Below, piece by piece: positions 26,400 to 34,514 of a stretch of 44,441 nt of DNA (the first letter of the stretch is position 1; each line of letters starts with the position of its first letter). This DNA comes from Blautia sp. BIOML-A1 (GTDB lineage Bacteria > Bacillota > Clostridia > Lachnospirales > Lachnospiraceae). The position numbers and the translations under genes are program-made. The stretch covers positions 1-44,441 of the forward strand of contig NZ_WWVR01000026.1 of NCBI RefSeq assembly GCF_009883055.1, read 5' to 3'. The notes below the pieces were generated by a model that searched no databases, was not told where the DNA came from, and saw only the letters and a list, made by a program, of their open reading frames with translations.

Positions 26400-27683
26400 T
26401 TACAGTTTCATAGCACTGCGGATGCAGTTCTCAATAAATTCTTCTCCCAAATCTGTATTCAGGCTAAGATCAAAGTTTCCGGCTGCTCCCCACATACGAT
26501 GAGTGTAATAGCGGTAGTTATCTGCACGGAGTTTTTCATTTTTCTGAACCGTAGCTTTGGCTTCTCCCTCGGAGATATTCTGTCTCTGTGCCACTCTTCT
26601 TATTCTGCTCACAAAAGGCGCTGAAAAAAATACTTTCAGACAGTTTCCGGAATTTCTGAGAACGTAATCTGCACAACGGCCTACTATGACGCAGTTGCCT
26701 TTTTTCGCAAGATTGCGTACAACCTGACATTCTGCCTCGAAAATTTTATCCTTCGGTGCTTCATCCTGCCTGTCTGTATTCAGGTACATCTGATTGACCA
26801 GATCATAGAGAAGGCTGTTTGTCATGATCTCCTCGTTTTTCTTAACGAATTCCGGGGTATATCCGGTGGTTCCTGCTGTCATCTGGATGATCTCTGCATC
26901 ATAAAAATCGTAGCCCAGCTTTTCTGCAAGAACCTTGCCGATATCGTGACCGCCGCTTCCGAACTGTCTTCCAATGGCGATAACATTTTTTCCATAGATT
27001 CCTGCTGTCTGTTCTTTTGCTTCGTTCTCGTTTTCTGCAGATACGCTTTCGGGGAAAATCATATCTTTCAGGAATGCAAGTTTCTTAGCGATGAGTCTGG
27101 CGATAAAGCCTACCAGAAGGGCAGCAATAACGGTACCTTCTCTTACACCAGCCAGCTTTCCTGCAAATACGAAAGAAAGTACAGCAGCGATTACTGACAT
27201 GGATACATCAAAACATATCTTGGTTGTTCCGAAATTTGTTTTCCATGTAAGAACAATAGCACGGACAAAAGACTCTCCCGGAAGCATAACAACGTCTGCC
27301 AAGACCTCCATATATACACCTACGCCAAGGATCAGACATCCGATAAGAAGATATACAATCTTCATGATGTACGCTTCCGGATTGACCCAGAAAAAAAGAA
27401 TCATGGTAAGATCAATAAAATATCCAAATATGATGGATACCGGAATCTGAAGGATGTGTTCCAATTTAAAGTTCTTTCTCAGGATGATCAACTGAAGTAC
27501 GATCAGAAAGATACTGAAAAAGATGGTAAAGTTTCCAAGTGTAAATGGAAAATTAAGACTTAATACGTAAGGAATTGATGAAATCGGGGATGTTCCCAGG
27601 TTTGCCTTTGTGATCAGGCTGACTCCCAGGGAGTTTACAAACAATCCTACCAGAAATATTAAATATCGTTTTAATTTCTCCAT
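26400..27683 (-). CDS. YczE-like membrane protein fused to a cytidylate-kinase-like domain
   Basis: The 427-residue protein has two unlike halves. Residues 1 to about 205 form five or more membrane helices of the YczE/YitT-like type (LVGLFVNSLGVSLITKANLGTSPISSIPYVLS). After a charged linker (about 210-230) comes a P-loop domain of the cytidylate-kinase-like family: VIAIGRQFGSGGHDIGK (233-250), CVIVGRCADYVLRN, and an NYRYYTHRMWG segment near the end. The kinase half would be cytosolic. GGAGGGG precedes the ATG. It lies 39 nt after a MarR gene on the same strand, so the regulator and the fusion form an operon. Its substrate is unknown: the domain relatives phosphorylate nucleoside monophosphates, but this subgroup is uncharacterised as far as I know. 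Confidence 0.85.
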   Translation of the reverse strand: MEKLKRYLIFLVGLFVNSLGVSLITKANLGTSPISSIPYVLSLNFPFTLGNFTIFFSIFLIVLQLIILRKNFKLEHILQIPVSIIFGYFIDLTMILFFWVNPEAYIMKIVYLLIGCLILGVGVYMEVLADVVMLPGESFVRAIVLTWKTNFGTTKICFDVSMSVIAAVLSFVFAGKLAGVREGTVIAALLVGFIARLIAKKLAFLKDMIFPESVSAENENEAKEQTAGIYGKNVIAIGRQFGSGGHDIGKVLAEKLGYDFYDAEIIQMTAGTTGYTPEFVKKNEEIMTNSLLYDLVNQMYLNTDRQDEAPKDKIFEAECQVVRNLAKKGNCVIVGRCADYVLRNSGNCLKVFFSAPFVSRIRRVAQRQNISEGEAKATVQKNEKLRADNYRYYTHRMWGAAGNFDLSLNTDLGEEFIENCIRSAMKL

Positions 27684-28495: not shown

Positions 28496-28955
28496 TTATC
28501 TTAACATTCCCCAAATACACTCCAGTAATGTTAGTGCAAGGATAATGTTAATAACACGGAAATGCCGCAGATAAAACTTCTGAATCAGTACGTCCAAGCC
28601 AGTCCAAGTACAGGTTGCTGAAGCCTTTTAGAAACGATGCGGATTGCTCTGTGTTTTCTGAGGTCTTCTTACTGAAAGCAATATGAATCGCAAGCCACAG
28701 TATATAGGCTGCTCCGATGTACTTCATCACTTCCATTACATTTGGAAGCAAAGAATTAACCCCATATACAAAAATTGCGCATAAGATTTGTACTACATAG
28801 TAGCCTGCAAAAATTCCAAAGAACAGCGGCTTTCCTTTTTTATATCCATAGTTTGTTACGGTATTTAATGCCAGAATATTTCCCGGCCCCGGAGTAAAGG
28901 CATTTATAACGCAATAAATCAGAAAATTGCTTAGTACCGCCATAGGCATAATCAT
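28496..28955 (-). pseudogene. Decayed LysE family amino-acid exporter
   Basis: From an ATG after AGGTGG the frame reads a good LysE N-terminus (SNFLIYCVINAFTPGPGNILA, then YGYKKGKPLFFGIFAGYYVVQ) through SFLKGF. It then changes frame: the first frame stops at 28548, while another frame continues with DVLIQKFYLRHFRVINIIL and ends in ALTLLECIWGMLR at 28496. Intact LysE proteins are about 200 residues; some 40 residues between SFLKGF and the C-terminal helix are missing too. So there is both an internal deletion and a frameshift, and the gene is not functional as it stands. Confidence 0.78.
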
Positions 28956-29023
28956 CAACCACCTTTCTGCTGTTATTATATCAGCAAACAGCGGTACATA
29001 CATAACACCTATTTTATATGGTT

Positions 29024-29117: not shown

Positions 29118-29528
29118 AAATTAAAAGTTCAGGAGTTGCTGTTTTTTTTAGATATGCTGGATTTAGAAAATACAAAAAGATTGAACCAGTATGTTTCCGG
29201 ACAGGTGGAAACTATCAAAGAAATTCACAGTCTGATGACATCCGACCTAAAACGCCACTATACTATTGAAGAGTTGTCAAAACAGTACCTGATGAACACC
29301 ACTACTTTGAAATCGGTTTTCAAAGCAGTCTATGGAATGCCCATCGCTTCTTACATGAAAGAATACCGTATGAAGTTGGCATCAAATATGCTGTTGCAGG
29401 AAGATAAATCTATTTTGGAAATTGCCGCCGCTGTGGGATATAAAAGCCAAAGTAAATTTACATCGGCTTTCCGAGATATATTTCAGATATTACCTACTGC
29501 ATATCAGAAACTGTATCGTAATCAATAA
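29118..29528 (+). pseudogene. N-terminally truncated AraC family regulator
   Basis: The open frame covers about 137 residues from LKVQELLFFLDMLDLEN to the end. It contains the double helix-turn-helix (YTIEELSKQYLMNTTTLKSVFKAVYGMPIASYMKEYRMKLASNMLL and SILEIAAAVGYKSQSKFTSAFRDIF) but not the usual 150 or more residue sensor domain. No ribosome-binding site suits the first ATG (29136 or 29154). It sits divergent to the decayed LysE gene, so regulator and exporter seem to have decayed together. A separate DNA-binding domain could in principle still be made. Confidence 0.65.
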
Positions 29529-29628: not shown

Positions 29629-30606
29629 CTATACAAATGCACTTTCCTCTTTTGCTTTCCGCAAATCTTTTAACACTGTTCCTATATCTCCCAAAATAGC
29701 AATCCCCTTATCTTCAATGAATTCCGGCAAAAACTGATATTCTGAATTTACGGAGATATAATATGCATCTTTCAAGCTGTTTGTCAGTTCCCAAAACGGT
29801 TCCTGTATAAACATCGGTGTCATGCGCCCTACTCCAAGTTCTATGAAGAGAATTTTTCTATCTTTGTTCTTTTGAATGTATTTTGAAATTTTCTCATATT
29901 CTTCTTCGTATTTTTTCCCTTGCAGAAAATTCCCATATCCTCTTACCCACGGAAACATTTCCGCACCACAATGAGGGCAGCGAGGAATCAGTTCATCCGG
30001 CACCATTGTCCCCTCTCCCATAGCCGCAATCATATCTGCCACAGGTTGTACGGCATCCCATGTTTCATCCTGACAACACTGGGAACACTGGAAGAAACGA
30101 TGATCTCCTTGAATCTCACTGACCTTTTCTTCCGGATAAATCTTTACAAACTGTGTATCCTGATTAGTCGTTAAGATATGAAAATCCTTTCCCTGCAAGA
30201 TTCTATCCAAATCCAGATATGGCTCTCTGATAGGGGCATTTTGTGTAGTATTTAAAAAGGTTGCCACATATCCCCAGTGTTCATTTCTTGTAGAAAACCG
30301 ATGCATCATTCCGCTAAAAGCACCTTTGAATCCATACTTATCTGCAAATTTTCCAAAATGCTCACGAAAAGAAGGGGTATCACTATAATAAAAGTCACCA
30401 CCTCCAGCCGCTGATAAACCGGATGCTCCGCCTACTACGATACACTCTGCCTCCTGCACTCTGCGAACAAATTCCTGAATCTGTTCCTCATAAGGAAGTG
30501 GTTTTTGTTTGCTCAACACTACAGCAGTACCGCCGGATGCATAGGTACTATAGTGTCTGGAATAGTTCATTTGTGTTTTCATTACCAAATTTTCATAACA
30601 ACTCAT
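29629..30606 (-). CDS. SirTM-type sirtuin (NAD-dependent ADP-ribosyltransferase/deacylase)
   Basis: The 325-residue protein has a Rossmann sirtuin core. The NAD loop reads VVGGASGLSAAGGGDFYY, TTNQDTQF replaces the classical QNID motif, and the classical catalytic His (HG) is replaced in EIQGDHRFFQC by Gln. The zinc module is CSQCC...CPHC. A C-terminal ELGVGRMTPMFIQEPFW closes the fold. These changes match class M sirtuins (SirTM), which ADP-ribosylate proteins rather than deacetylate them. There is a 45-residue N-terminal extension. AGGAG lies 9 nt before the ATG. It is the third gene of a same-strand run of three sirtuin-like genes. The usual SirTM partners (macrodomain hydrolase, GcvH-like protein, lipoate ligase) are not in the window. 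Confidence 0.85.
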   Translation of the reverse strand: MSCYENLVMKTQMNYSRHYSTYASGGTAVVLSKQKPLPYEEQIQEFVRRVQEAECIVVGGASGLSAAGGGDFYYSDTPSFREHFGKFADKYGFKGAFSGMMHRFSTRNEHWGYVATFLNTTQNAPIREPYLDLDRILQGKDFHILTTNQDTQFVKIYPEEKVSEIQGDHRFFQCSQCCQDETWDAVQPVADMIAAMGEGTMVPDELIPRCPHCGAEMFPWVRGYGNFLQGKKYEEEYEKISKYIQKNKDRKILFIELGVGRMTPMFIQEPFWELTNSLKDAYYISVNSEYQFLPEFIEDKGIAILGDIGTVLKDLRKAKEESAFV

Positions 30607-30653
30607 TTTTTCATTCTCCTATCTCACAACTGTAATATCTTTAACCACTTTAC

Positions 30654-31502
30654 TTAGTCTATCCTTCCCTTTCTGATTTCCTTTAACGCTACCGTAAGAT
30701 TACCATCCACACCGATGGATTTTTCTTTGATTTCCTCTGGAATGTAAATTTCGCCCTTGTTAAATGTGATATATCTTGCCTGTGGTTCTACTGCTGCAAG
30801 CTGCATCAAAGGAGCTTTAATCATCTGATTTCTCCAACCAATGCCAAATTCCAGAATTACCAGCTTCTTTCCATGTAAATTCTGAATAAATTCTTGATAG
30901 AGGGCAGCCTTTTCCTTCCAATTTTTCGTTTCTGTAAACGAGGACATCTCACCCCAATTTACTTCCATATCTCCACCACATTTTGGACATTTCGGCAGTA
31001 ATTCTTTAGGTACTCTTCCGTTTACTTCCTCTTCTGTCATGGCGAGAACTGCTTTTTGATTAGGATAGACCTCGTCATGACATCTGTTCTTGCACCGCAT
31101 CTGGGTTAATTTCCCTTCCATTTCAAAAACACGGTCTGCCTCAAAACCTGCCGGCACAAAATGATCCTCCGCATTGGAAGTTACTACGAAATATTCTTTA
31201 TCCTTTACTAGGGCATAGATGTTTTTCATAATCTCACTCGGCTCATCCTGCATAGCTTTTGCCTTAACAAGTCTGCTTACAAACGCCCACTTTTCTTCTA
31301 CCTTCATTGGCACTGAAAATCCATGTAAAACACAACGCAGTCCGTATTTTTCTCTGAAATCTCCCATATTTTCCTGAAACCATGCGTCATCTGCAAAAAT
31401 ATTATATCCCTCTGCGATAGACAAACCATTACTGGCTCCAATCAAAATACCATCTGCTTCTTTGATGATTTGACTTATCTCTTGATATACATTCATCTTC
31501 AT
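30654..31502 (-). CDS. Second SirTM-like sirtuin with divergent active site
   Basis: The 282-residue protein is a homologue of the gene at 29629-30606: ILIGASNGLSIAEGYNIFADDAW for the NAD loop, TSNAEDHF in place of QNID, MRCKNRC and CPKCGG as the zinc ligands, and VILEFGIGWRNQMIKAPLMQ near the end. At the catalytic-His position it reads EMEGKLTQM, so neither His nor the Gln seen in its neighbour is present; activity may differ or be lost. The ATG at 31502 shares its A with the TGA stop of the upstream truncated homologue (TGATG), which indicates coupled translation; an in-frame GTG one codon earlier is possible. AAAGGA precedes it. Confidence 0.82.
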   Translation of the reverse strand: MKMNVYQEISQIIKEADGILIGASNGLSIAEGYNIFADDAWFQENMGDFREKYGLRCVLHGFSVPMKVEEKWAFVSRLVKAKAMQDEPSEIMKNIYALVKDKEYFVVTSNAEDHFVPAGFEADRVFEMEGKLTQMRCKNRCHDEVYPNQKAVLAMTEEEVNGRVPKELLPKCPKCGGDMEVNWGEMSSFTETKNWKEKAALYQEFIQNLHGKKLVILEFGIGWRNQMIKAPLMQLAAVEPQARYITFNKGEIYIPEEIKEKSIGVDGNLTVALKEIRKGRID

Positions 31503-31894
31503 CACATTTCCTTTCCCACTATGTTTTCTTTTAAATCCCGCAGGGTTTCTGCCAAATCTCCTGCTATATAAATGCCTTTGTCTTTTATATGCTCTGGAAC
31601 TGAGGATTTCTTCTGATTCAGACAGGCATAAAACACCTTTTCATTTTTGTATGTCATTTCCCAAAAAGGAAGTTTAATAATACTGGGTGTCATCTCACCA
31701 ACCCCCAGCTCCAGCAGTACAACATTCTTATCTGTTCCATTCATGAGATATTTTTTTAGGAAATTCTCATATCGCCTTACACCTTCCCTCCAGTCTTTTC
31801 CCTCCAAAAATGTATCATCCCTTACCCAGGGAACCATGATTCTCCCGCACTCATTACATCTTGGCAGAAAACTGACTTGTTCCTCCTTTTGCAT
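31502..31894 (-). pseudogene. 5'-truncated third sirtuin-like gene (C-terminal half only)
   Basis: The frame encodes the part of a SirTM-like protein after the first zinc-cysteine pair: LPRCNECGRIMVPWVRDDTFLEGKDW, then VVLLELGVGEMTPSIIKLPFWEMTY, ending at IAGDLAETLRDLKENIVG. The NAD-binding half is absent, and the 118 nt upstream are intergenic, so the gene lost its 5' end. Yet the remaining frame is intact, has AAAGGAG 12 nt before the ATG at 31894 (a GTG at 31930 is an alternative), and overlaps the next gene. It is either a relic that still drives coupled translation or a short accessory zinc/C-domain protein. Confidence 0.6.
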
Positions 31895-31974
31895 ACACCA
31901 CTTTATCTCCTTTTTTATATCAGATTCCACTCTTTTTATTTCGCTTGACTTTTATTTTTTTACTTGTTAAAATC

Positions 31975-32016
31975 AAAATTACATCAAGCATTAAAATCAT
32001 ACTATCATGTAATTTT
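31975..32016. promoter_or_regulatory. Inverted repeat between the Rrf2 gene and the sirtuin run
   Basis: AAAATTACAT (31975-31984) and ATGTAATTTT (32007-32016) are perfect 10-bp arms 22 nt apart, centred in the divergent intergenic region. It is a candidate Rrf2 operator. Promoter elements on both strands are poor matches, so no start points are proposed. Confidence 0.45.
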
Positions 32017-32048
32017 TAAAATTGCAAGAAGAAAATTCGAGGTGACAA

Positions 32049-32707: not shown

Positions 32708-33160
32708 ATGGAGAAAAATATATTTAATATTAATAATAATGAACTTTCATATGGTAGAGGATATGTGTATTCTCTGCAGTACCATCTGGTATGGTGTACA
32801 AAATACCGGAAAAAGATTTTAAAAGATGGTATTGATGCAGAATGCAAAGAAATGCTCTATGACCTTGCAGAAGAATATAAATTTCAGATTCTGGCAATGG
32901 AGGTTATGCCGGATCATATCCATCTGCTTGTAGATTGCAGACCACAGTTTTATATTCCGGATATGATCAAGATCATGAAGGGGAACATTGCCAGGCAGAT
33001 GTTTCTTGCCCATCCGGAACTGAAGAGGGAACTTTGGGGAGGGCATCTGTGGAATCCATCTTATTGTGCAATAACGGTGAGCGACAGGAGCAGGGAACAG
33101 GTATGCTCTTACATCGAAGGGCAAAAAGAAAAACAGAAACCTGAAAGAAGCAGTTTTTAA
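32708..33160 (+). CDS. tnpA: IS200/IS605 transposase TnpA (Y1 HUH)
   Basis: The 150-residue protein matches full-length Y1 transposases. YSLQYHLVWCTKYRKKIL opens the fold, the HUH motif is MPDHIHLLVDC, a LWGGHLWNPSYCAIT strand follows, and the catalytic Tyr lies in VCSYIEGQ. It nicks and rejoins single-stranded element ends during replication. It is followed after 25 nt by tnpB. The ATG has no ribosome-binding site and sits 7 nt after a TATAAT box. Confidence 0.92.
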   Translation: MEKNIFNINNNELSYGRGYVYSLQYHLVWCTKYRKKILKDGIDAECKEMLYDLAEEYKFQILAMEVMPDHIHLLVDCRPQFYIPDMIKIMKGNIARQMFLAHPELKRELWGGHLWNPSYCAITVSDRSREQVCSYIEGQKEKQKPERSSF

Positions 33161-33185
33161 AACTGTAAGCAGAAAGAGGGAAGAG

Positions 33186-34514
33186 ATGAAGACAGTATCC
33201 AGTTATGGTGCAGAATTGCGAAAACAGAATATCCCGATCCGCCAGACACTGGATATTTATCGTTCCGCAGTCAGTTGCCTGACGGAGATTTATGCTCAGA
33301 TATGGGATGAACTGGCAGCAATCACGGAACCTAAAAAACGTTTTAACACGGCAGAACATCTGGTACATAGCACTAAAAAGAATCAGGCAAGGTTTGATTT
33401 TGACCTGTGTTTTCCAAAGATGCCTTCCTATCTGCGAAGGGCAGCTATCCAGCATGCTCTGGGAAGTGTGTCCTCATATAAGACGAGGCTGGAACTGTGG
33501 AAAAAAACGAATCAAAAAGGTGGCGAGCCGAAGCTGGTGTGTGATAATCATGCTATGCCGGTATTCTACCGAGATGTGATGTACCGCGAAGATACAGAAG
33601 AAAAAGATGGGGCGTACCTGAAACTTTATGATGGTCATGACTGGAAATGGTTCCGGGTCAGTCTCCGTCATACAGATATGGAATATCTCAGAAAAAACTG
33701 GGCAGGAAAAAGAGCTGCTGCACCCGTACTGGAAAAAAGGCATCATAAATACTTCCTGCGTTTTTCTTATACAGAAGAGGTGCCGCTTACAAGGGCATCT
33801 GCAAAAGAACAGATCATCTGCAGTGTGGATTTAGGACTCAATACGGATGCAGTCTGCACCATTATGCGGTCAGATGGAACTGTCCTGGGAAGAAAGTTTA
33901 TCAATTTTCTCAGTGAAAAAGACCGGATGTACCGTGTGCTGGGACGGATAAGCAGGTTCCAGCGGAAGCATGGCTCTGTACAGGTGAAAAGCAGATGGGC
34001 TTATGCGAAGCGTCTTAACACAGAACTCGGAAGAAAGATCGCAGGAGCAGTTACAGGATATGCGGAAGAAAGCCATGCGGATGTGATCGTGTTTGAGTAT
34101 CTGGAAATAAAAGGAAAGATATCGGGAAGAAAGAAACAGAAGCTGCATCTGTGGAGGAAAAGGGATATCCAGAAAAGATGTGAACATCAGGCTCACAGGA
34201 GAGGAATGCGGATATCCAGGATCTGTGCATGGAATACCAGCAGGCTTGCATATGATGGGTCAGGAACAGTTGTCCGTGATCCGGGCAATCACAGTCTCTG
34301 TACATTCCAGAATGGAAAAAGATATAACTGTGATCTTTCGGCATCCTATAATATTGGAGCAAGATATTTTATCCGTGAATTCTTAAAACCCCTTCCGGCA
34401 ACGGAAAGGTCTTTGCTGGAGGCAAAAGTCCCTTCGGTAAAGCGTAGGATCTCATGTGTATATGCGGACTTAAGAGAATTATTTTCAGAAATGGAACTCT
34501 TAAAAACTGCATAA
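33186..34514 (+). CDS. tnpB: RNA-guided nuclease TnpB of an IS200/IS605 element
   Basis: The 442-residue protein has the RuvC triad of TnpB: Asp215 (SVDLGLNTDA), Glu304 (VFEYLEIKG) and Asp383 (YNCDLSASYNIGAR). The zinc ribbon normally found between the last two (two CxxC pairs) is degenerate: the first pair reads TSRLAYDGSG and only scattered Cys remain (ICAW, LCTF, YNCD). The protein is longer than many TnpBs (about 370-400). GAGGGAAGAG precedes the ATG. TnpB proteins cut DNA guided by an RNA made from the element's right end, which helps the element persist. Whether this subgroup without the zinc ribbon is an active nuclease is uncertain. Confidence 0.88.
   Translation: MKTVSSYGAELRKQNIPIRQTLDIYRSAVSCLTEIYAQIWDELAAITEPKKRFNTAEHLVHSTKKNQARFDFDLCFPKMPSYLRRAAIQHALGSVSSYKTRLELWKKTNQKGGEPKLVCDNHAMPVFYRDVMYREDTEEKDGAYLKLYDGHDWKWFRVSLRHTDMEYLRKNWAGKRAAAPVLEKRHHKYFLRFSYTEEVPLTRASAKEQIICSVDLGLNTDAVCTIMRSDGTVLGRKFINFLSEKDRMYRVLGRISRFQRKHGSVQVKSRWAYAKRLNTELGRKIAGAVTGYAEESHADVIVFEYLEIKGKISGRKKQKLHLWRKRDIQKRCEHQAHRRGMRISRICAWNTSRLAYDGSGTVVRDPGNHSLCTFQNGKRYNCDLSASYNIGARYFIREFLKPLPATERSLLEAKVPSVKRRISCVYADLRELFSEMELLKTA

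Follow-up and report, generated by a model that had tools for sequence, protein, structure and literature searches.

The SirTM operons of Streptococcus pyogenes and Staphylococcus aureus (PMC4518038) are the closest described counterparts of a sirtuin array found in a 44,441-nucleotide stretch of Blautia sp. BIOML-A1 DNA (assembly GCF_009883055.1, contig NZ_WWVR01000026.1; the whole stretch is referred to as the window). The array consists of three genes, g1, g2 and g3, of types A, B and C, respectively. All three are SirTM-related and, as a preliminary description of this DNA had claimed, arranged head to tail; the minus strand encodes them, and the best sequence match in PDB is the S. pyogenes SirTM 5a3a for both g1 (E = 2.2e-42) and g2 (E = 3.1e-36). 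Pfam SIR2 scores fall slightly below the cut-off for g1 and g2, as they do for a macrodomain-linked SirTM. The array shares with the described operons the class M catalytic residues of types A and C, the fold relationship and a redox theme. It differs in that no macrodomain, GcvH-L or lipoate ligase gene was found adjoining it, in that at least two sirtuin paralogues stand together, one of them with Glu and without Arg192, in that Met, Leu or Ile rather than Asn or Thr precedes the TP of type A, and in its Rrf2 neighbour.

Three further systems are compared. Minimal pairs of a SirTM and a Zn-macrodomain (PMC11490716) are related to the array in sequence and occur in the same bacterial family; unlike the array, they adjoin a macrodomain gene and group apart from types A and B. 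FAM118A and FAM118B (PMC12700824) are likewise two divergent sirtuin paralogues acting on nicotinamide adenine dinucleotide (NAD), each very weak alone and markedly more active in combination, but they are filament-forming vertebrate proteins of the SIR2_2 subfamily. HypR of S. aureus (PMC10715087) is an Rrf2 repressor that senses oxidants via a Cys33-Cys99' disulfide, and resembles the regulator beside the array in its family and in a conserved Cys near position 99. A literature search covering titles and abstract openings found no description of a macrodomain-free multi-sirtuin operon; an earlier mention, for example in supplements, is possible. With a probability of roughly 0.45, we read the array as a thiol- or redox-responsive protein ADP-ribosylation unit of SirTM-like sirtuins, in which types A and C would write the modification, type B would be a non-transferase partner and the Rrf2 protein would repress the operon. 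The findings suggest a two-part protein-modification system, previously undescribed, in gut bacteria.

Active-site residues were compared in a census of 192 sequences, from which identical sequences and frames under 200-220 amino acids (aa) had been dropped. The preliminary description had assigned a class M-like Gln to the first protein, and the Gln of IQGD in g1 does align with Gln137 of the S. pyogenes enzyme (SpySirTM); g1 carries N148, D150, Q166, R222, GVGRMTP and four zinc Cys. Asn118, Asp120, Gln137, Arg192, TP and the four zinc Cys are kept in all 82 type A sequences, which therefore have the class M combination of Gln for His, Asn118 and Arg192. An N-terminal extension of ~32 residues (about 1-32), conserved across type A, precedes the part of g1 that aligns with SpySirTM. 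The class M motif GVGx[NT]TP is absent from type A: the residue before TP is Met in 47, Leu in 33 and Ile in two of the 82 sequences, compared with Asn in 11/11 comparison SirTMs. Nor was a macrodomain gene seen within 5 kb of type A in 20 genomes, contig ends limiting the view in some, and because these two class M features fail we call it SirTM-like rather than filing it as SirTM. Type C retains Asn118, Asp120 and Gln137 in 22/22 sequences and Arg192 in 21. Judged from these residues, members of type A (and C) are probably ADP-ribosyltransferases.

Type B departs further. The EMEG motif reported for the second protein places the Glu of g2 at the position of SpySirTM Gln137, and this replacement is found in all 66 type B sequences. 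Arg occupies position 192 in none of the 62 that have a residue there (four show gaps), leaving type B without the SirTM combination of Gln for His and Arg192. The T of TP is Asn in 66/66, its P is Gln in 65 (g2 has NQ here), Asp120 is Glu in 65, and the NAD loop carries an Asn in 65 (g2 reads ASN there). Asn118 is retained in all 66 and each zinc Cys in at least 65, g2 included. Seven type B relatives, six near-identical sequences and P0115N, are without the zinc module, and all seven have the Glu. In SpySirTM, mutation of Asn118, Gln137 or Arg192 sharply cuts activity and the change of Gln137 to His abolishes it (PMC4518038). Given these effects and the loss of both Gln137 and Arg192, type B probably does not function as a SirTM transferase. 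Structure prediction nevertheless gives g2 a complete sirtuin fold of the SirTM kind, and the prospect raised in the preliminary description, that the NAD pocket is destroyed in both proteins, is not borne out. The ratio of nonsynonymous to synonymous polymorphism (pN/pS) is 0.124 for g2 and 0.109 for g1 (eight copies each), and 0.198 for intact g3 (three copies); g2 is not decaying, and purifying selection on it is about as strong as on g1.

The same gene pair recurs in other genomes. A genome scan with the g1 alignment returned 242 relatives, the best 80 of which were analysed as loci, a gene cluster being defined by a common strand and gaps of up to 1 kb. Type B lies in a same-strand cluster with type A in 69 of these 80 loci. 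Among the 11 others, five are near contig ends (L003, L049, L056, L072 and L080), L074 has B in an opposite-strand cluster and L042 has a broken B ~7.4 kb upstream. In the reverse direction, g2 was searched against 299 genomes of the family of G001, with matches in 154; the scores split into 19 B-type matches of at least 262 bits and others of at most 199. Another SirTM paralogue lies within 1.5 kb of B in all 19. Seventeen of these partners are type A (at least 64%; incomplete or split in L096 and L097), that in L085 is a 44% relative, and that in L087 is a type-C-like gene together with the end of a g1-like gene. Among 395 genomes of the class to which G014 belongs, type A was found in G014 alone, with B adjoining. 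The pairing of A and B is not due to chance.

An unrooted tree of 77 sequences placed A (19 rows) and B with zinc-less B (24 rows) each on one side of a branch with 100/100 support. Seventeen of the 19 rows labelled C share a branch, and the remaining two, both long, lie apart from it. One of these two joins the group formed by the 11 comparison SirTMs, of which the two that were checked (L104 and L106) adjoin a macrodomain gene. One protein, P0115, is a natural B-A fusion. Gene order among the 80 loci is A-B in 40, A-C-B in 10 and C-B-A in five, with others besides; in these counts 'C' covers both type C and type D, and a number of the rarer patterns stem from split matches. The Faecalibacterium chromosome NZ_CP094467.1 has the operon twice (L038 and L047), each time with types A, C and B present; B is split in L038. 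In close relatives of the window, the database proteins P0016, P0017, P0018 and P0001 include chimeras in which the beginning of g2 is joined to the end of g1, and one protein with a partial g1 repeat; they suggest recombination within the array, or assembly faults. The idea put forward at the outset that the paralogues work together is supported in part, by the pairing seen from both directions, the separate clades, the similar purifying selection and the P0115 fusion, and occurrence of the genes alone at random sites was not what the searches found: they are mostly paired, with four loci showing A and no B.

A divergent Rrf2 gene with a shared regulatory region, absent from the preliminary description, borders the array. 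Its product scores 104 bits against Pfam Rrf2 (cut-off 30), and such a gene is present in 51 of the 80 loci; three of the 29 without it are cut by the contig, and in L033 and L075 an Rrf2 gene occurs at another place in the locus. Cys98 is the only Cys of the window's regulator and is conserved in 50/50 aligned sequences, the window and near-copies included. Candidate operators were counted in 42 distinct intergenic regions, after seven near-identical regions (the window's not among them) and exact duplicates had been dropped. GTTA-N9-TAAC occurs in 31 of these divergent regions and a -35/-10-like pair in 34, against expectations from shuffled sequences of 0.11 and 0.61, respectively. The window's clade is without an exact GTTA-N9-TAAC and has instead TTACAT...ATGTAA, which was also found in L014. 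The invariant Cys of this regulator favours the earlier suggestion of a stress module.

Under the proposed mechanism, type A (g1) and any intact type C protein would split NAD and transfer ADP-ribose to protein in the manner of SirTM, as the conserved catalytic residues indicate. Type B (g2), having kept the sirtuin fold and the pocket Asn and lost the transfer Gln and Arg, is most likely a partner without transferase activity, which would bind A as well as NAD or ADP-ribose and would set the activity of A or its choice of target. The Rrf2 protein would act at the shared promoter region to repress the operon and, by analogy with HypR, would release it on oxidation of Cys98; we infer both the binding of A to B and thiol oxidation as the signal.

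Several observations weigh against this scheme. Since its motif differs from that of class M, the activity of type A is itself something we infer. An Arg lies within three columns of position 192 in nine type B sequences and could stand in for Arg192, and the loss of the zinc module represents only one or two events. The locus counts are not independent, as loci are partly near-identical or close relatives. In L043, L052, L062 and L073 the available stretch has a type A gene but lacks type B, and L003 has g1 and no g2 in 4.2 kb upstream, through loss or an assembly fault; type A may therefore work alone. P0115 is a single protein cluster, and no second fusion was found in the 395 genomes searched with it. 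The regulator offers no second common Cys, other columns having Cys in at most 15 of 50 sequences, and, in contrast to HypR (PMC10715087), no common partner for Cys33; it scores 47.7 bits against the NCBIfam HypR equivalog model, whose cut-off is 180. Independent enzymes, moreover, also come to share operons.

An explanation that we consider unlikely but worth serious attention is that A, B and C are separate enzymes with separate targets, which have no more in common than a promoter and a stress signal, the Glu of B performing a different chemistry on a substrate of its own. Type C is missing from many loci, gene order varies, and no zinc Cys of type B is missing from more than one of the 66 sequences, as might be expected of an enzyme with a substrate-binding module. 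Separate enzymes would not account so readily for the SirTM paralogue that accompanied B in all 19 cases, for the seven B relatives devoid of the zinc module or for the B-A fusion.

The preliminary description had noted the absence of a macrodomain, GcvH or lipoate ligase gene, and indeed none was detected by Pfam among the 36 window frames scanned (10 and 26, smaller frames lying outside the scan). Among these frames the GcvH-L and LplA2 of extended SirTM operons were likewise not found, LplA not having been searched genome-wide. Macrodomains and GcvH were sought in 20 genomes drawn from the 80 loci. Within 5 kb of the operon these genomes showed no macrodomain, some of the operon contigs being short; a neighbouring macrodomain was rejected as a candidate partner, the nearest lying 6.0 kb (G011) and 9.3 kb (G012) away. 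Macrodomains are encoded in 18 of the 20. In nine (G001, G004, G005, G007, G008, G009, G014, G017 and G020) a separate SirTM-like gene stands beside a macrodomain gene, directly in eight and ~1.7 kb apart in G008, so that an ordinary SirTM-macrodomain pair of the minimal kind often coexists with a separate multi-sirtuin operon. Full-length GCV_H was found in only two genomes (G016 and G017), on another contig or far from the operon, and eight further genomes gave short partial matches only; GcvH-L was accordingly rejected as the target.

Another reading is that B is an eraser which, with Glu in place of the catalytic Gln, would bind the ADP-ribosylated protein and hydrolyse the bond, the role that a macrodomain has in known SirTM operons. 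In its favour, all type B (66/66) and zinc-less B (7/7) sequences have the Glu, Asn118 is kept, and no macrodomain was seen close to the operon in the 20 genomes. The macrodomains encoded elsewhere in 18 of them could, however, act in trans, and we know of no sirtuin with such a hydrolase activity; an eraser role for B is distinctly improbable.

The array appears in near-identical form in several genera. A block extending from ~29.2-29.5 kb to 32.5-32.6 kb of the window is 96.7-98.8% identical across L001-L009, of which L003, L006 and L007 contain only part; these loci are recorded under Blautia, Eubacterium ramulus, Butyribacter, Hominisplanchenecus, Coprococcus catus, Anaerobutyricum hallii and a Lachnospiraceae metagenome-assembled genome. 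At the sensitivity used, no match to the window's flanks was seen in L001-L009, while flanks are common to L005 and L007 and to L003 and L009. Because the end points of the block differ, it is not a single fixed-end transposon. A 131-aa PF09719 gene (C_GCAxxG_C_C, putative redox-active protein) lies between g2 and g1 in L002, L005, L007 and L008 and is absent there in the window, L001, L004, L006 and L009; short direct repeats at the junction suggest its loss. PF09719 was found in four of the 80 loci, and a CGGC-domain gene (PF08821) in 13, in several directly behind the Rrf2 gene. The products of these small cysteine-rich genes might serve as targets or as redox partners. A further gene conserved across the operons in general was also sought and rejected, neighbour clustering having yielded mostly regulators, a few transport and ATPase genes, and antisense frames. 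There is a slim chance that the array forms a sirtuin-only ADP-ribosylation cycle, in which A and C would write, B with its Glu would remove or read the mark instead of a macrodomain, a thiol-oxidation sensor would switch the cycle on, and the small PF09719 and PF08821 proteins in or beside some operons would be its targets.

The third gene had been described as 5'-truncated beside two full-length genes. The latter are full length, but the start of g3 is intact and its middle is lost: the start and first residues match the 301-aa intact gene of L001, L002 and L006, which has TTNID, YQGN, PWVRDD and GVGEMTP, and 477 nt are missing in frame. Comparison of the eight near-identical operons in which the region is complete, the window included, showed five distinct internal deletions in the alignment (window 477, L004 737, L005 654, L008 516 and L009 693 nt); g3 has been deleted repeatedly. 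In four of the five the frame runs to its own stop, which overlaps the start of g2, in the window as the TGATG coupling already reported; in L004 it continues in frame into g2. If one deletion in three were in frame, at least four of five would be so with a chance of ~0.05, and this excess suggests that selection maintains translation from the g3 remnant into g2. The Rrf2-to-g2 spacing of L084 equals that of L005, and the protein database holds further short g3 variants, some being fragments or chimeras. The g3 of the window is without the catalytic core and has likely lost its original function.

Repeated inactivation of a costly g3 would be expected if the array were a NAD-depleting defence or self-poisoning module, and the five deletions, the further short variants and the movement of the operon between genera are compatible with this. 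Three observations make it very unlikely: g3 relatives are kept in other lineages (the C clade), g1 and g2 are under purifying selection, and the defence searches were without a relevant match, leaving the earlier suggestion of a defence module without support so far. None of the three sirtuins matched a PADLOC (2023) family at E 0.001; plasmids gave no match and phages a single 37-bp match, in searches that detect near-identical DNA only; and no relative was found on viral contigs with a single-protein query suited to close relatives. That g2 and g3 are decaying duplicates of g1, as the missing core of g3 and the missing transferase residues of g2 might suggest, is scarcely tenable given the separate A, B and C branches, the pN/pS of g2 and the invariant signature that B has of its own.

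Table 1 Coordinates of the array, its regulatory region and small cysteine-rich genes of related loci
Feature	Positions	Strand	Basis or placement
g1, type A SirTM-like sirtuin, 325 aa	29629..30606	minus	open reading frame and sequence match
g2, type B sirtuin with altered active site, 283 aa	30654..31505	minus	
g3, type C sirtuin with in-frame internal deletion, 142 aa left of 301	31502..31930	minus	
Divergent region between sirtuin operon and Rrf2 gene	31931..32048		
Inverted repeat TTACAT...ATGTAA in divergent region	31979..32012	minus	
Rrf2-family regulator, divergent, 145 aa	32049..32486	plus	Pfam
PF09719 gene	L002 3059-3454		between g2 and g1
PF08821 CGGC gene	L026 6823-7185		behind Rrf2 gene

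An IS200/IS605-type element (window 32708-34514) begins ~220 bp behind the Rrf2 gene, with TnpA at 32708-33160 (Pfam and NCBIfam) and a TnpB-like frame at 33186-34514 that scores under the TnpB cut-off. On the other side of the array are two apparent gene remnants, a LysE-type transporter frame (151 aa, 28548-29003) and an AraC-type C-terminal frame (130 aa, 29136-29528), and a 427-aa frame (26400-27683) in which a DUF6198/YczE-like membrane part is fused to a cytidylate-kinase-like domain. An Mrr-type restriction endonuclease domain in frame 1448-2404 is distant from the array.

These SirTM-like enzymes of common gut bacteria probably differ from the known SirTMs in both target and regulation, since no full-length GcvH was found in 18 of the 20 genomes and no eraser is linked to the operon. 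The operon is also a natural setting in which to ask whether an active sirtuin can be controlled by one with an altered catalytic site, as has been reported for FAM118A and FAM118B in vertebrates (PMC12700824).
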